Position numbers and translations under genes: made by a program | From: Xylophilus rhododendri | Lineage (GTDB): Bacteria; Pseudomonadota; Gammaproteobacteria; Burkholderiales; Burkholderiaceae_C | Assembly: GCF_009906855.1 (NCBI RefSeq) | Contig: NZ_CP047650.1 | Span: 4,092,001 to 4,156,000 of the forward strand | Direction of reading: 5' to 3' | Length of the DNA stretch: 64,000 nt | The notes under the pieces: model-generated | Database searches by the model: none | The model's input: only the letters and a program-made list of their open reading frames with translations | What the model was told of the DNA's origin: nothing | Shown: positions 15,632-34,400 of the stretch, in pieces | Position numbering within the stretch: the first letter of the stretch is position 1 | How the letters are laid out: every line of letters begins with the position of its first letter

Positions 15632-16378
15632 ATGAACCTTGCCCAGCGCGCCAGCCGCTTCCTGTCCCGCCATACCGACCGGCGGCTGCTGCCCTTGCGG
15701 GGTGAGGTGGGGGTGGTGAGCTTCAGTTTCGACGATGCGCCGATGTCGGCCTGCATGGCGGGCGCGGCGGTGCTGGAGCGGCATGGTGTGCGGGGCACCT
15801 TCTATGTGGCCGGCGGCCTGACCGATGGGGTGGAGGAGGGGCTGGCCTGCCATTCCGAGGCTGTGCTGCGGCGGCTGGTGGCCGAGGGGCATCAGCTGGG
15901 CTGCCACAGTTTTTCGCATGTGCATGTGGATCGCATTCCTGCTGCTTCGCGGCGCGAGGAGTTCGACCGCAATGCGGCTTTTCTCGGTGGCCTGGGCGTG
16001 GATCTGCGGACGCTGGATTTCGCCTATCCCTTCGGTGGGGTCAATGTGGGGGCCAAGCACGACTGCGCGCTTCGGTTTCGCTCTTCCCGCGCCACCGGCG
16101 GCGGCACGCATGTGGGGACTGCCGACCTGAATGCCCTGCGGACCCACCGCTTCTACCGGAGCCAGCCGGATGGGGTTTCCTACGAGGAGCGGCTGGCGGT
16201 GGCCGCTGCGCAGCGGGGGTGGCTGGTGGTCAATACGCACGAGGTGCAGCCGGATGCCGGGGCGTTCGGGTGTACGGCTGAGGATCTGTCCCGGGCTGTG
16301 GGGCTGGCGCTGGAGGCTGGGTGTCTGGTGTTGACTGTGGGGGGGGCGCTGGACCATTGGATGGGGGCTGGGCGCTAG
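15632..16378 (+). CDS. Polysaccharide deacetylase (NodB/CE4 homology)
   Basis: The 248-residue protein carries the CE4 motifs: motif 1 SFDDAP (Asp34 base, Asp35 metal), motif 2 HSFSH (His92 and His96, metal), motif 3 AYPFGG (131-136) and a late NTHE motif. It would remove acetyl groups from N-acetylated sugars of the polymer or its precursors. No signal peptide is evident, so a cytoplasmic or membrane-associated site is possible. It is the last gene of the plus-strand block, 19 bases after the barrel gene. From about 15700 onward third codon positions contain noticeably more T and G and fewer C than upstream genes, hinting at a separate origin. The stop lies 2 bases before a large repeat element. 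Confidence 0.9.
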   Translation: MNLAQRASRFLSRHTDRRLLPLRGEVGVVSFSFDDAPMSACMAGAAVLERHGVRGTFYVAGGLTDGVEEGLACHSEAVLRRLVAEGHQLGCHSFSHVHVDRIPAASRREEFDRNAAFLGGLGVDLRTLDFAYPFGGVNVGAKHDCALRFRSSRATGGGTHVGTADLNALRTHRFYRSQPDGVSYEERLAVAAAQRGWLVVNTHEVQPDAGAFGCTAEDLSRAVGLALEAGCLVLTVGGALDHWMGAGR

Positions 16379-16380
16379 GG

Positions 16381-16456
16381 GGTGCTCCTTTGCGGAGGGC
16401 TTTGTCTCCTGCGGAGGGATGGTTCTCCTGCGGGGGCCTGGTTCTCCTGCGGAGGG
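16381..16456. repeat. Four tandem 19-bp units, left array
   Basis: Units at 16381-16399, 16400-16418, 16419-16437 and 16438-16456 share the form NTGGTTCTCCTGCGGAGGG with a few substitutions. Each contains the small dyad CTCC-TGC-GGAG. The last unit is also the outermost part of the perfect inverted repeat arm. Confidence 0.85.
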
Positions 16457-17063
16457 CGGAGCTGGGGCTGCGCGCCCCAGACCGCGCTCACTTTCTTTGC
16501 TTCGCCAAAGAAAGTAAGCAAAGAAAGGCGACCCGACACCCGAGGCCCTTCGGGCACCGCTGCGGTACTCGCAAAGGCGGGGTCCACGACAACTCGCCTT
16601 CGGCTCAAACAGGTCGTGGCCCTGATCCGCCTTTGCTCCGTTCCTCGCTCTCGGGCTCACGGGACCCGGATACGGGGACAGCGGCTGCTTCGCAGCGCAA
16701 CGGACCTTCGCTGCGCTCGGCCTCCACTGAAATGCGGCGCACAAGCTGGGGCGGGTATTCATCAGCCAGCGGCCGAGCGAAGCGACGGCCCGTTGCCCTG
16801 CGAAGCAGTGGCTGTCCCCGCTCCCGGGTCCCGTCTGCGGGTGAGCGAGGAGCGCAGCAAAAGCGGATCAGGGCCACGACCTGTTTGAGCGAAGCGAGTT
16901 GTCGTGGACCCCGCTTTTGCGAGCACCGCAGCGTGCCCCCTCCGAAGGAGGGGGACTCCCGCAGCCGGGTCGCCTTTCTTTGCTTACTTTCTTTGGCGAA
17001 GCAAAGAAAGTGAGCGCGGTCTGGGGCGCGCAGCCCCAGCTCCGCCCTCCGCAGGAGAACCAG
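16438..17063. repeat. Long inverted repeat with 98-bp perfect outer arms
   Basis: Bases 16438-16535 are the exact reverse complement of 16966-17063 (98 of 98). Inside, about 16560-16720 and 16780-16930 remain complementary at roughly 85-90 percent with small insertions, leaving a short unpaired centre near 16750. Each outer arm contains its own hairpin, ACTTTCTTTG-6-CAAAGAAAGT, at 16490-16515 and 16986-17011. A transcript from either side could fold into a very long hairpin, so it can act as a two-way terminator or as an RNase III-type substrate. Confidence 0.9.
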
Positions 17064-17120
17064 CCCTAAGCAAGGACATCAGCCCCAAGCAAGGAGATCA
17101 GCCCTCCGCAAGGAGACCAG
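17045..17120. repeat. Four tandem 19-bp units, right array (inverted)
   Basis: Units at 17045-17063, 17064-17082, 17083-17101 and 17102-17120 have the form CCCTCCGCAAGGAGANCAG and mirror the left array. Units two and three have diverged in the same way (AAGCAAGG in place of CCGCAAGG), suggesting local duplication after the arms formed. Confidence 0.85.
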
Positions 17121-17131
17121 ACCCAAGAGCT

Positions 17132-18304
17132 TCACCCCTTGCCACGCACCCGACGCACAAACGCCCGCAACGCCGGCACCTCCCGTGCCATCTCCCGCAC
17201 CCGCTGCAGGTTGTAAGCACCGCGCCCCAGCGTCGTGAACGCCTCCCGCAGCGAATACAGCGGCATATGCCGGTCCGCCCACTGGAACTTGTAGGCCTCG
17301 TCGCCCGCGGTGAAGTCGAAGACCTTCAACCCGTCGTCGATGCTGCGGCGGATCGCCGCCTCCATCAGCACCCGCCCCGGCGAGAGCTTGGCCCAGGCCT
17401 CGTCGTAGGTCGGCATCAGCCAGTACAGCGTGTCGCCCATGCGCAGCCCCCAGTGGGTGGCGATCGGCTTGCCGTCGAGCATCAGGGCCGACACCACGGC
17501 CTGCACGCCCTGCAGCGGCGTGCTGTTGAGGCGATCGAAGAAGCTGCGGAAGGCGGGCAGGGCGAAGGCGTCGAAGGCGCCGGTCTGCTGCCAGCGGCGG
17601 GACTTCTGCTCGGCGAGGGCGTCCATCACCAGCCGCAGATCGGCGGGGTCTTCCACCAGCGGCAGCATGCGCAGCTCACCGGCGTCGGACAGGCGGCGCA
17701 GCTGGCGCCGCGTGTCGGCCAGCAGGCCGGTGCTGCGTCCGGCCGCGTACTCGGCGAAGCTGGCGGGCAGCCGGGCGGCATGGGCGCTTTCGTCCTGACG
17801 CGCGCCGGGCAGGGCGGCGAAGGGATTGGGCAGCTCGCCGATCGTCGCCGGCAGGCGCCGCACCCGCACCTGGTCCACCGAGGGCAGGGCGGCGATGAAG
17901 CCGCGCCACAGCCGCGCCGCATGGTCGGGCGTGAGGGCGCGGGCGAAGTCGGGGTCGATCAGGGGCGCCTGGTAGTCGATCATCTCGCCGCCCAGGAAAC
18001 CCATCACCCGCAGCAGGCCCACGCGCCGGAAGCCCATGGGCAGGATCAGCACCGTGGGGCCGTCCGGGCTGTGCGCGCGCAGCTCGGCGATGCACACCTT
18101 CCAGCCCTGCGGCTTGCCCAGGGTCTCGAACCAGATGCGCACCCAGTCGAAGCTCTGGAAGGCCGTGGCGGCCATGCGCGGCCAGGCTTCGCGCCAGCGC
18201 GATTCGACCGACTCCAGGCTGGCATGCACCGCCACATGCAGCGAGGCGGGCAATGAAGGGAGGGGGGCGGTGGGGGCGAGCGGCGCGCTTGCCTCAGAAG
18301 GCAT
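17132..18304 (-). CDS. FemAB/CelD-like GNAT acyltransferase of polysaccharide biosynthesis
   Basis: The 390-residue protein has the two-lobed GNAT layout of the CelD/BcsL and FemAB-like family: an early AFQSFDWVRIWFETLG segment, a central QLRRLSDAG helix region, and the C-terminal acetyl-CoA lobe (GKPIATHWGLRMGDTLYWLMPTY, then FDFTAGDEAYKFQWA). Members modify polysaccharides with acyl groups in cellulose and exopolysaccharide loci. The ATG overlaps the upstream transferase gene by 11 bases, so both are in one minus-strand operon. The stop lies 11 bases beyond the symmetric repeat. The acyl donor and target sugar are unknown. Confidence 0.85.
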   Translation of the reverse strand: MPSEASAPLAPTAPLPSLPASLHVAVHASLESVESRWREAWPRMAATAFQSFDWVRIWFETLGKPQGWKVCIAELRAHSPDGPTVLILPMGFRRVGLLRVMGFLGGEMIDYQAPLIDPDFARALTPDHAARLWRGFIAALPSVDQVRVRRLPATIGELPNPFAALPGARQDESAHAARLPASFAEYAAGRSTGLLADTRRQLRRLSDAGELRMLPLVEDPADLRLVMDALAEQKSRRWQQTGAFDAFALPAFRSFFDRLNSTPLQGVQAVVSALMLDGKPIATHWGLRMGDTLYWLMPTYDEAWAKLSPGRVLMEAAIRRSIDDGLKVFDFTAGDEAYKFQWADRHMPLYSLREAFTTLGRGAYNLQRVREMAREVPALRAFVRRVRGKG

Positions 18305-31449: not shown

Positions 31450-34400
31450 ATGGCCCACCTCGACCCCGATCCCGAAGAAATTCCCGTCGCCAAGAGCACG
31501 CTGCCGTTTCCGGTGGTGGGCATCGGCGCCTCGGCCGGCGGCCTGATCGCGCTGCAGAAACTCCTGGGCAGGCTGCCGGCGGAACCCGGCATGGCCTTCG
31601 TCATCGTGATGCACCTGAGCCCCGAGCATGACAGCTCGCTCGGGCCCATCCTGCAGCGCACCAGCAGCCTGCCGGTGTTGACCGTCGCCGGCGATACGCA
31701 TATCGAGGTGAACCGGGTGTATGTCATCTCGCCGGCTCTCAAGCTGATGATGACGGACGGCATGCTGCGTGTGGCGCCCTTCGCCTCGATCGAGGGGCGG
31801 CGCAGTTCCATCGACCTGTTCTTCCGCACCCTGGCGCATGCCCACGGCGAGCGCTCCATCTGCGTGGTGCTGTCGGGCAGCGGCTGCGACGGCGCGCAGG
31901 GCCTGCGCCGGGTGAAGGAGCTGGGCGGCATCGCGCTGGCGCAAAGCCCGGACGACGCCGAGTTCGACGGCATGCCGCGCGCCGCCATGCAGACCGGCAT
32001 GATCGATTTTGTGCTGCCGGTGGAGGAGCTGGCGACCAAACTCGTGCTGCTGTGGGAGAACGCCCGGCGCATGGAGCTGCCCGCGCCGCCCTCGGACCTG
32101 GTGGTGGCCCGCTCCACCGGCGAGGCCGAGCTGCAGGCCGAGGAGGCGCTGCTGTCCATCAAGGCCATCCTGCGCGAGCGCACCGGCCACGAATTCGCCC
32201 ATTACAAGCGCGGCACCATCCTGCGCCGCCTGGAGCGGCGCATGCAGGTCAATGCGGTGCCCGACCTGCCCAGCTACCGCCGGCTGCTGGATTCGGAGCC
32301 GCGCGAAACCGCCGCATTGCTGCAGGACATGTTGATCAGCGTGACCAATTTCTTTCGCGACCCGGACGCTTTCAGCGCCCTCGAACAAACCCTCAGGAGC
32401 TACCTGGCCGAGCGCGGGCCGGACGAGCCCTTCCGTGCCTGGGTGGCCGGCTGCGCGACCGGGGAGGAGGCCTACTCCCTGGCCATCGTGCTGCGCGAGG
32501 TGCTGGGCCACAAGGTGGCGATCCAGGTGTTCGCCTCGGACATCGACGAGCGTGCCATCGCCAGCGCCCGCACCGGCCTGTTTCCGGTGTCCATCACGGC
32601 CGACGTCAGCCCGGAGCGCCTGCGCGACTTCTTCGTGGCCGAGAGCAATGGCGTGCGCATCAACAAGGCGACGCGCGACATGGTGGTGTTCTCGGCGCAC
32701 AACCTGCTGAGCGATCCGCCCTTCACCCGCATGGACCTGATCTGCTGCCGCAACGTGCTGATCTACCTGGACCGCTTCGCGCAGACGCAGGCCCTGCGCA
32801 GCTTCCATTTCGCGCTCAAGCCGCGCGGGCTGCTGTTCCTGGGCAGCTCCGAGACGGCCGACGCGGCCGACTCCCTGTTCGACGGTATCGACAAGGGCCA
32901 CCGGCTCTACCGCGCCAACATCAAGGCGCAGCGCGCGCGGGCGCTGCCGCCCATCCCGAGCCGGCTGCCGGAGCTGCCGGTGCACCCCTACCGCGGCCCG
33001 AGCACCGAGCTTTCCAAGGCGCCGCTGGAACTGCTGCACGAGCGCATCCTGCGCAACTACGCGCCGCCCACGGTGCTGGTGGATTCCGACGACACGGTGC
33101 TGCATGTCAGCCAGCGCGCCGCGCACCTGCTGCGCCTGCCCGAGGGCGCGCCCACCAACAAGCTGCTGGCCCTGGCCCGGCCCGAGCTGCGCGCCGAACT
33201 GCGCGCCGCCCTGGCCCGGGCCGCCGAGACCGGCATGACGGTGGAGGCGCCGCGGGTGCAGCTGATGGTCAACGGCCAGCCGCACATCGTCATCATGACG
33301 GTGCGGCCGGCCACCGAGGAGGTGCCCAAGGGCCTGATGCTGGTGGTCTTCGACGAGGCCCAGGAGAGCATGGCCCTGCCGCCCGAGGGCATCCCCGAGC
33401 GCGATCCGCTGATCGCCTCGCTGGAGGACGAACTGCTGCGCACCCAGGAGCGGCTGAAGAACATGGTGGGCGAATCCAGCGCCTCCACCGAGGAGCTGCG
33501 CGCCTCCAACGAGGAGCTGCAGACCATCAACGAGGAACTGCGCTCCACCACCGAGGAGCTGGAGACCAGCCGCGAGGAGCTGCAGGCCGTCAACGAGGAG
33601 CTGACCACCGTCAACACCGAGCTGACCCTGCGCATGGAAGACACCACCAAGCTCAACGACGACCTGCAGAACCTGATGAACTCGGCCGAGATCGGCACCG
33701 TGTTCGTGGACCGGGACATGCGGCTCAAGCGCTTCACGCCGCAGGCCGCCACCCTGTTCAACCTGCTGCCCTCCGATGCCGGCCGGCCGCTGCTGGACAT
33801 CACCCACCGGCTGCACTATCCGGAGCTGTCGGCCGACGTCAACGAGGTGCTGCGCGACCTCAAGCGCATCGAGCGCGAGGTGCGCAGCCAGGACGAGCGC
33901 TGGTTCCTGGCGCGCGCCGTGCCCTACCGCACCAGCGAGGACCGGATCGAGGGCGCGGTGCTGGCCTTCTTCGACATCAGCTCGCGCCGCGCCATCGAGG
34001 AGCAGCTGCGCCAGACCGAGCAGCGCATGCGCCTGGTGGCCGAGAGCATGCGCGACTACGCCATCATCACCCTGGACCGCGCCGGCATCATCGCCAGCTG
34101 GAGCCCGGGGGCGGAGAAGATCTTCGGCTACGCGCCGGAGGAGGCCATCGGCCAGTCCTTCGCGCTGATCTTCCTGCCGGAGGACCGCGAGGCCGGCAAG
34201 GCGGTCGAGGAACTGCGCCGGGCCGGCGAATCCGGCCGTGCCGACGACAACCGCTGGCATGTGCGCAAGGACGGCGAGAAGGTCTTCTGCAGCGGCATCA
34301 CCACGCCGCTGGACGACGGGCAGGGGGTGGTGGGCTTCGCCAAGATCGCCCGCAATTTCACCGCCGAGGAAATGCGCGACCAGCAGCGCGAGGCCGCCCT

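Follow-up and report, generated by a model that had tools for sequence, protein, structure and literature searches.

A family of long palindromes behind genes of Xylophilus rhododendri carries a compositional halo that suggests repeated opening and repair of the chromosome

The palindrome, its copies and their position behind genes

The stretch of DNA analysed here (the window) comprises 64,000 nucleotides of the Xylophilus rhododendri contig NZ_CP047650.1 (positions 4,092,001 to 4,156,000) and contains a 740-bp palindrome at positions 16381-17120. It is flanked by a polysaccharide deacetylase gene on the forward strand (PF01522; 15557-16378) and by a convergent gene on the reverse strand that encodes a GNAT-type acetyltransferase (PF13480; 17132-18304). 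As an earlier note on this sequence had described, the element occupies the interval between two convergent stop codons: that of the deacetylase gene ends at 16378, 2 bases before the element, and that of the acetyltransferase gene begins at 17132, 11 bases after it. Both genes carry the compositional halo described below, the deacetylase gene on the left and the acetyltransferase gene on the right.

The outer arms at 16438-16535 and 16966-17063 are complementary at 98 of 98 positions, in agreement with the earlier note, and when taken more broadly (16390-16535 and 16966-17111) the outer arms reach 86% complementarity over 146 nt. Both contain a conserved hairpin core, ACTTTCTTT-loop-AAAGAAAGTnAnCAAAGAAA, the left copy of which lies at 16490-16526 on the forward strand (loop CTTCGC at 16500-16505) and the right copy, inverted, at 16975-17011 on the reverse strand. 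In the outer part of the left arm, a small GC-rich hairpin (CTGGGG..CCCCAG) was read from the sequence at 16462-16480, and a counterpart with altered sequence is present in the other subfamilies read. The left inner arms (16558-16722) and the right inner arms (16771-16933) pair imperfectly, being 86% complementary between 16603-16722 and 16771-16890 and 95% complementary between 16558-16597 and 16894-16933, with a central spacer of 48 nt (16723-16770) between them that corresponds to the hairpin tip. The mirror symmetry to the base that had been claimed for the element holds for the outer arms but not for the inner ones, whose centres are displaced by 4-5 bp from the outer-arm centre and whose 37-base blocks have only 7-19 matching positions when the outer register is held fixed. 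Folded as single-stranded DNA, the 740 bases are predicted to form one long hairpin (-390 kcal/mol, z = -41), and none of 20 shuffled sequences was as stable. No Pfam match was found for the four largest of the seven open reading frames of at least 60 codons that touch the element.

Arrays of 19-bp units lie at both ends of the palindrome, with four units at 16381-16456 on the left and a diverged array at 17045-17120 on the right. The four units per side noted earlier are peculiar to the window's copy, most copies having one: in a strict count over 50 ends of its subfamily, one unit was present at 31 ends, two at nine, none at seven, three at two and four at one, under a rule that scores only two of the four diverged right-hand units in the window's copy. 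Matched unit numbers on both sides are therefore not a property of the family. Elsewhere in the window, at 33479-33603, there is a tandem repeat of about 21 bp, which would be of an ATNEEL type if coding.

The genome of X. rhododendri (5.87 Mb) contains about 43 related sites, at least 28 of which belong to the window element's own subfamily (A), all copy numbers being lower bounds since no more than 40 candidates per genome were scored at first look. The 28 places comprise 25 full or split copies, two halves (L033 and L034, the only ones counted as such) and one mixed copy (L038), which combines a subfamily B left arm with a subfamily A right arm about 1.15 kb apart (with G000:C1:3643606-3643688). 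Both half copies end at the left edge of the central spacer, that is, at the hairpin tip. The sister subfamily B is represented by ten full copies, to which two B-like and three further related copies are to be added, and a generic hairpin pattern matched 74 arms (35 forward, 39 reverse). Element length is mostly 500-750 bp, with outer arms of 98-146 bp each. All members read carry the core or a near variant of it twice, inverted, and the loop-closing pair is G-C, T-A or C-G depending on the genome (read by eye from the list of pattern matches), which argues for a conserved hairpin. The earlier note had reckoned with the absence of any second copy and with an assembly artefact; the former is contradicted by the dispersed copies, and the latter is very unlikely because the family recurs in many separate assemblies.

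Beyond this genome, an exact 44-mer of the arm was found in 104 stretches across the collection of genome contigs, and the 80 of these stretches with titles listed come mostly from Betaproteobacteria (for example Variovorax, Polaromonas, Curvibacter, Noviherbaspirillum, Herbaspirillum, Deefgea). Of 299 genomes sampled from the host's family, 48 contain a 23-mer with up to two mismatches, X. rhododendri having the most, and the generic pattern is present in 15 of 398 genomes sampled across the phylum. The hairpin core recurs across Burkholderiales and sparsely in other Gammaproteobacteria, and cores are near-exact even in distant genera. Searches with the element gave no match among phage records and eight among plasmid records, seven covering 7-8% of the query and one covering 65%.

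Several copies contain inserts. IS481-like elements with TGT..ACA ends occupy the CTTCGC loop of the conserved hairpin in L031, L032, L035, L036, L039, L040 and L041, the protein having been scanned for L035 only, and in the six copies with junctions read the loop is the target duplication. A second type of insert, which we take to be IS3-like, lies elsewhere in three copies with overlaps of about 3 bases, and its protein in L031 has rve and HTH_21 domains. In the relative G006, the centres of two elements (L215, L220) hold an extra C-rich inverted repeat, CCCTCCCCC..GGGGGAGGG, which is absent from the copies of X. rhododendri, and the interior of the element therefore seems modular. Near the start of contig C1 of X. 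rhododendri, four adjacent genes (L224:936-5374) encode proteins with a stretch of the type LPNELL.DVFDYL, presumably F-box-like, which would be unusual in bacteria.

The copies lie preferentially behind genes, as the earlier note had anticipated. At 38 of the 50 subfamily ends the nearest called gene faces the element with its tail, and for 27 of these 38 genes the stop is no more than 31 bp away from the first unit. Six of the 28 places, with a single end recognised, were excluded; at the remaining 22, where both neighbours were called, these are arranged tail-to-tail at 12, tail-to-head at 10 and head-to-head at none. The background pairs, taken from 20 sampled stretches and the window, comprise 64 convergent, 272 tandem and 62 divergent ones (n = 398), which gives p = 4e-5 for the tail-to-tail excess and p = 0.04 for the lack of head-to-head pairs. 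This tally was taken from an amino-acid-based gene caller, because a codon-based caller overlooks genes with the halo, such as the deacetylase gene; its own tally is 10 convergent, 18 tandem and 1 divergent of 29.

A strand-specific halo around the elements

On the strand that runs 3′ towards the element, the nearest 100 bp contain C at 0.201, T at 0.300, A at 0.097 and G at 0.402 (50 ends of the 28 places), in comparison to C and G at about 0.35 and T and A at about 0.15 on the same strand more than 1 kb away. This halo is two-sided, decays with distance and reaches up to about 1 kb on each side, the baseline being regained near 900 bp. The strand leaving the element appears A/C-rich by eye. 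At fourfold degenerate sites of genes pointing to the element, C falls from 0.53 to 0.13 and T rises from 0.03 to 0.34 with nearness, while G peaks at 0.59 at 400-600 bp. Genes pointing away give the mirror image (A from 0.026 to 0.27, G from 0.41 to 0.13), and the halo therefore follows the element and not coding constraint or the direction of transcription.

A T/(T+C) of at least 0.45 over 300 bp was reached in 49 of 64 element flanks, from the 32 places with both ends recognised (22 of subfamily A, 10 of B), versus 5 of 291 control gene ends that have no recognised element within 2.5 kb (p = 4e-34). Flanks of subfamily B (n = 20) show the halo as in subfamily A. At the window's copy it is moderate, with values of 0.40 on the left (deacetylase end) and 0.39-0.40 on the right (acetyltransferase). 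Element-free gene ends are flat in composition, both for the 54 in the window (nearest bin) and for 390 sampled ones, a few of which lie beside elements. Likewise, no comparable halo was seen at 15 REP clusters in 250 kb of Escherichia coli (T/(T+C) 0.54 within 60 bp, 0.46-0.52 beyond).

The halo is present in the relative G003 (n = 12 flanks; G006 contributed one flank to the collection, which was left out of the profile) and is clear in 12 flanks from other genera of the host's family. The 104 loci of the 44-mer gave 120 flanks, not independent of each other, with a halo over about 400 bp, in which the bins below 120 bp partly cover the element; for 72 of the 85 flanks with 2 kb available, T/(T+C) is higher at 120-300 bp than at 1200-2000 bp. 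Outside the host's family (f1) the halo is short, and the gradient is not clear in six f27 and two f33 flanks. With regard to replication, the sides are nearly symmetric (origin-proximal 0.523, distal 0.483; n = 31, p = 0.05), the origin position being taken from sampled GC skew. The half copies L033 and L034 have the halo on the arm side only. Reading the mixed copy L038 as a solo arm with a one-sided halo was ruled out, as its B-type left arm lies 1.15 kb leftward and the skew is present (0.60) at 1.1-1.4 kb on that side of the A-type arm too.

In a nearly blind scan of gene ends of at least 300 bp in 20 spaced stretches and the window, 7 of 368 ends combined a T/(T+C) of at least 0.45 with a GC skew of 0.1 or more. 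Of these ends, four adjoin three previously unrecognised elements of other subfamilies (L224, L230 on both sides, L239), and one adjoins the element of L225, earlier a weak match. The remaining two do not fit: L230:13969 is near an element in the opposite orientation and the end in L233 has no element. The scan missed some elements, namely a second one in L239 and the window's own.

Other causes of such a skew were considered and set aside. Transcription-linked mutation is ruled out by the mirror pattern in genes pointing away and by the flat control gene ends. A strongly context-specific deaminase was rejected, as fourfold T/(T+C) varies with the neighbouring bases and no single context is dominant. 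Chi-type selection was considered as well; GCTGGTGG is more frequent on the towards strand (24 versus 5), in a comparison that is not composition-matched. Among the matches listed in a search of the open-access literature, with subscription journals mostly outside it, no title or abstract dealt with such a family or with a bacterial halo, and the portions covered of a stem-loop survey (PMC2267715) contain nothing on the palindrome family.

Comparison with related genomes

Sites that hold an element in one species and none in another allow the halo to be compared directly. The window's site (L001) is empty in G003, where 4 bp separate the same two stops, and in G005, where the two genes overlap; T/(T+C) is 0.40/0.39 with the element versus 0.31-0.33 without it. 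At three further sites (L018, L012, L016), X. rhododendri and G003 have the element, G006 has a gap of matching size (with the element read in sequence for L018 and L012), and in G005 the same genes lie close together with the core absent. Within 300 bp at these sites, T/(T+C) is 0.40-0.55 in X. rhododendri, 0.39-0.57 in G003, 0.33-0.48 in G006 and 0.24-0.35 in the element-free G005, with the right flanks of G006 overlapping the G005 values and with the left flank of L016 taken about 230-300 bp from the element in X. rhododendri, G005 and G006 and absent for G003. Where G005 has the core as well (L013), its values are 0.42 and 0.38. The left flank of L009 is at 0.54 in X. rhododendri, and at 0.32 in G003 and 0.28 in G005, with no core found in either relative. 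G003 is haloed at L003, where it holds an element of another subfamily. An exception among the compared sites is L005, at which G005 and G006 are without the core, yet have T-rich left ends (0.42, 0.44); the gene there looks permease-like by eye, and a membrane protein may confound T-richness. Element-free orthologous sites being otherwise unskewed, the halo depends on the element.

Substitutions on the towards strand were assigned to lineages with G005 as the outgroup in five flanks of L018, L012 and L016, where misalignment near flank ends may add error to the counts. Within 300 bp of the element, the X. rhododendri lineage has 28 C>T versus 2 G>A and 36 G>T versus 0 C>A changes, in comparison to 11 versus 13 and 6 versus 2 at 1000-1450 bp (Fisher near-far p = 1.5e-4 for C>T/G>A and 0.03 for G>T/C>A). 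C>G, which contributes much of the change at fourfold sites, is balanced there by G>C (16 versus 15); these sites have reached saturation between X. rhododendri and G003, so that counts of G>T and C>G may conceal two-step changes. These changes indicate that the process continued after the split of X. rhododendri from G003. For the G003 lineage, continued accrual is suggested by a weaker sign, and the case rests on G>T, which falls off relative to C>A (16 to 2 near, 7 to 6 far), whereas C>T relative to G>A does not (20 to 8 near, 18 to 10 far). The window's site taken by itself is too small a sample to decide: within 200 bp of the stop, the acetyltransferase side has C>G 9 versus G>C 0 with C>T 2, and the deacetylase side C>G 5 versus G>C 3 with C>T 2.

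The sequences of the elements, in turn, are alike within species. Several element sites are common to two to four species, and at four sites shared by X. rhododendri and G003 the orthologous arms are 0.69 identical versus 0.687 for any pair of arms from the two genomes, while the flanking DNA at these sites is 81.5-90% identical. Copies are 0.969 alike within G003 and 0.91 within X. rhododendri, and a tree of 44 arms from 28 loci (16 loci of X. rhododendri and 12 of G003, the latter with one arm per locus and represented by the arms most similar to the X. rhododendri element) splits the arms by species. Since arms at shared sites group by species, the copies evolve in concert. Independent insertion at the same four gene ends could mimic this pattern, but four such coincidences among thousands of gene ends seem unlikely. 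Gene conversion between the two arms of one copy, as proposed earlier, is not borne out, because arms inside one copy are 0.886 identical versus 0.914 for left and right arms of different copies (16 of the 28 places); the likeness is genome-wide.

Breakage, repair and alternative explanations

The halo is suggestive of recurrent opening or breakage of the chromosome at the elements, followed by repair. The explanation that we prefer, and that we hold to have about an even chance of being correct, is that the palindrome is prone to breaks or gaps, that resection then leaves 3′ single strands, and that other copies serve as the template for part of the repair. The palindrome would fold into a cruciform or a hairpin, at which the chromosome would break or acquire a gap, and resection of the ends would expose, on either side, up to about 1 kb of the strand that runs 3′ towards the element. 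Damage on this exposed strand, with C lost and T increased, would leave the halo. Repair would draw on the sister chromosome and sometimes on another copy, and the use of other copies would account for the likeness of the copies in one genome and for their concerted evolution. The towards strand is the one that would be left single by 5′ resection from a break, or that would be the lagging template of incoming forks, and the loss of C and the G to T changes on it fit damage to single-stranded DNA. Break or gap, resection, repair route and any nuclease involved are inferred from such patterns. The two half copies, which end at the tip and have the halo on the arm side, suggest deletion after opening at the tip, although two cases prove nothing; their one-sided halo fits a fossil halo and also a one-sided process at each arm.

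As to the nuclease, SbcD is a subunit of a known palindrome nuclease. The SbcD profile (TIGR00619) gave a best, partial match of 46.4 bits in X. rhododendri, below the family cut-off of 77.65, and nothing above the cut-off in G002, G003 and G004 either; in this search, which covered SbcD, the cut-off was reached in 8 of 14 control genomes and missed in 6. SbcD is thus likely to be absent from X. rhododendri, and SbcCD is therefore probably not the agent here and is unsupported as the nuclease in this genome. Within the same genus, SbcD is present in G001, G005 and G006, which offers a natural comparison for the tolerance of palindromes. Halos may be weaker in the SbcD-carrying G006, a hint from few sites.

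The proposed process has experimental precedents. In yeast, inverted repeats are reported to raise mutation in both flanks via breaks and resection (PMC3681665), and the halo is likewise a two-sided trace with the polarity of a resected strand; the yeast sites are reporter-based, whereas the present family is bacterial and natural, and is read from evolutionary composition and substitutions, not from mutation rates. In E. coli, a 246-bp interrupted palindrome cleaved by SbcCD is reported to be broken at replication and restored by recombination, while mutation to rifampicin resistance, which arises at a locus not linked to the palindrome, did not increase (PMC4213011). The elements are similarly long interrupted palindromes that may be repeatedly broken and restored, but they are natural, number about forty and reside in a genome without a clear SbcD. 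By analogy, the palindrome would work like a chronic-break palindrome.

Stalling of replication forks without breakage is a somewhat unlikely alternative, in which folding of the palindrome on the single-stranded lagging template makes the fork pause, the exposed template, up to the length of an Okazaki fragment, is damaged, and ordinary recombination keeps the copies alike. The halo length of about 1 kb and the slightly stronger origin-proximal side would be expected from it, whereas the near equality of both sides would not, given that most loci meet forks from one side only (the origin again being taken from sampled GC skew). That the elements target sequence that is already skewed, the halo being older than the element, is compatible with the association alone and with the T-rich element-free relatives at L005, but is extremely improbable in view of the unskewed element-free orthologues at L001, L018, L012, L016 and L009 and of the accrual in the X. 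rhododendri lineage after the split. MITE-, ERIC- and NEMIS-type elements are short non-coding elements with inverted ends and with empty sites in relatives, and the family shares these inverted ends and, at L001 in G003 and G005 and at three more G005 sites with short gaps and no core, the empty sites. A MITE-like non-autonomous element, as the earlier note had considered, would be acted upon at its two inverted cores by a candidate transposase that favours gene 3′ ends, the halo being damage from excision or nicking and the shared sites repeated insertion; dispersed copies, near-exact cores in distant genera and the tail-to-tail bias also speak for it. We regard it as unlikely, since no target-site duplication was seen (same-copy repeats of 4.36 bases versus 4.26 between copies for 22 copies, where old mutated flanks could hide one), the four largest reading frames lack a Pfam match, and sites are common to two to four species while the sequences go by species. 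No matching autonomous element was seen among the inserts examined inside copies, which are IS481-like and IS3-like guests.

REP, BIME and REPIN sequences are dispersed extragenic palindromes, often in inverted pairs behind genes, that are mobilised by RAYT (Y1) transposases, and the family resembles them in its dispersed, extragenic and often inverted-paired palindromes behind genes. The palindromes of the REP/RAYT system measure 20-40 bp (PMC3733652) and are tagged; the element is far larger, with outer arms of 98-146 nt and 740 nt as a whole, and a GTAG tag was not noticed in its family by eye. Mobilisation by a RAYT is unsupported, since Y1_Tnp (PF01797) had no match in the element carriers G001, G002, G005 and G006, which counts against the MITE-like explanation as well; X. 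rhododendri itself has one match of 34 bits (cut-off 23). Intergenic placement and a tail-to-tail bias are shared with the Pseudomonas fluorescens repeat families R0, R1, R2, R6, R178 and R200, which are intergenic, in several cases with inverted repeats, and biased towards Tail-repeat-Tail positions (PMC2718517); those of the families for which inverted repeats are listed measure 80-177 bp, and the part of that source available mentions neither a halo nor concerted evolution. A function at gene ends under selection, as a two-way terminator or mRNA stabiliser, with the halo of separate cause, would account for the stops within 31 bp of the first unit, the lack of head-to-head pairs, the strong hairpins and the position bias shared with P. 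fluorescens. It is nevertheless very unlikely to be the whole explanation, since it leaves unexplained a halo extending about 900 bp into genes of either direction, which a terminator or a source of double-stranded RNA would not produce and which is missing from the E. coli REP clusters. The palindrome is set apart from REP/RAYT elements by its size and the missing transposase and from MITEs in that neither a target-site duplication nor, among the inserts examined, a parent was found.

The preferred explanation of breakage and repair can be taken further. As a tentative possibility, the palindrome family might be a self-maintaining recombination hotspot, at which a trans-acting enzyme recognises the 37-base hairpin core and opens the chromosome, repair from other copies spreads and homogenises the family, and single-strand damage writes the halo onto neighbouring genes. 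If so, the family would parallel, in bacteria, the selfish DNA that is driven by gene conversion, and the halo would preserve a natural and lasting trace of how far resection runs and of its strand polarity. If breakage and repair are indeed the cause, the repeats would be natural, replicated break-like sites in bacterial chromosomes that are legible from sequence alone, and resection length, strand polarity and damage spectrum could be compared between species and between repair genotypes, such as those with SbcCD and those lacking it. The repeats also exemplify a non-coding element that skews codon usage in genes as far as about 1 kb from it, an effect that bears on gene finding and on analyses of codon bias and horizontal transfer.
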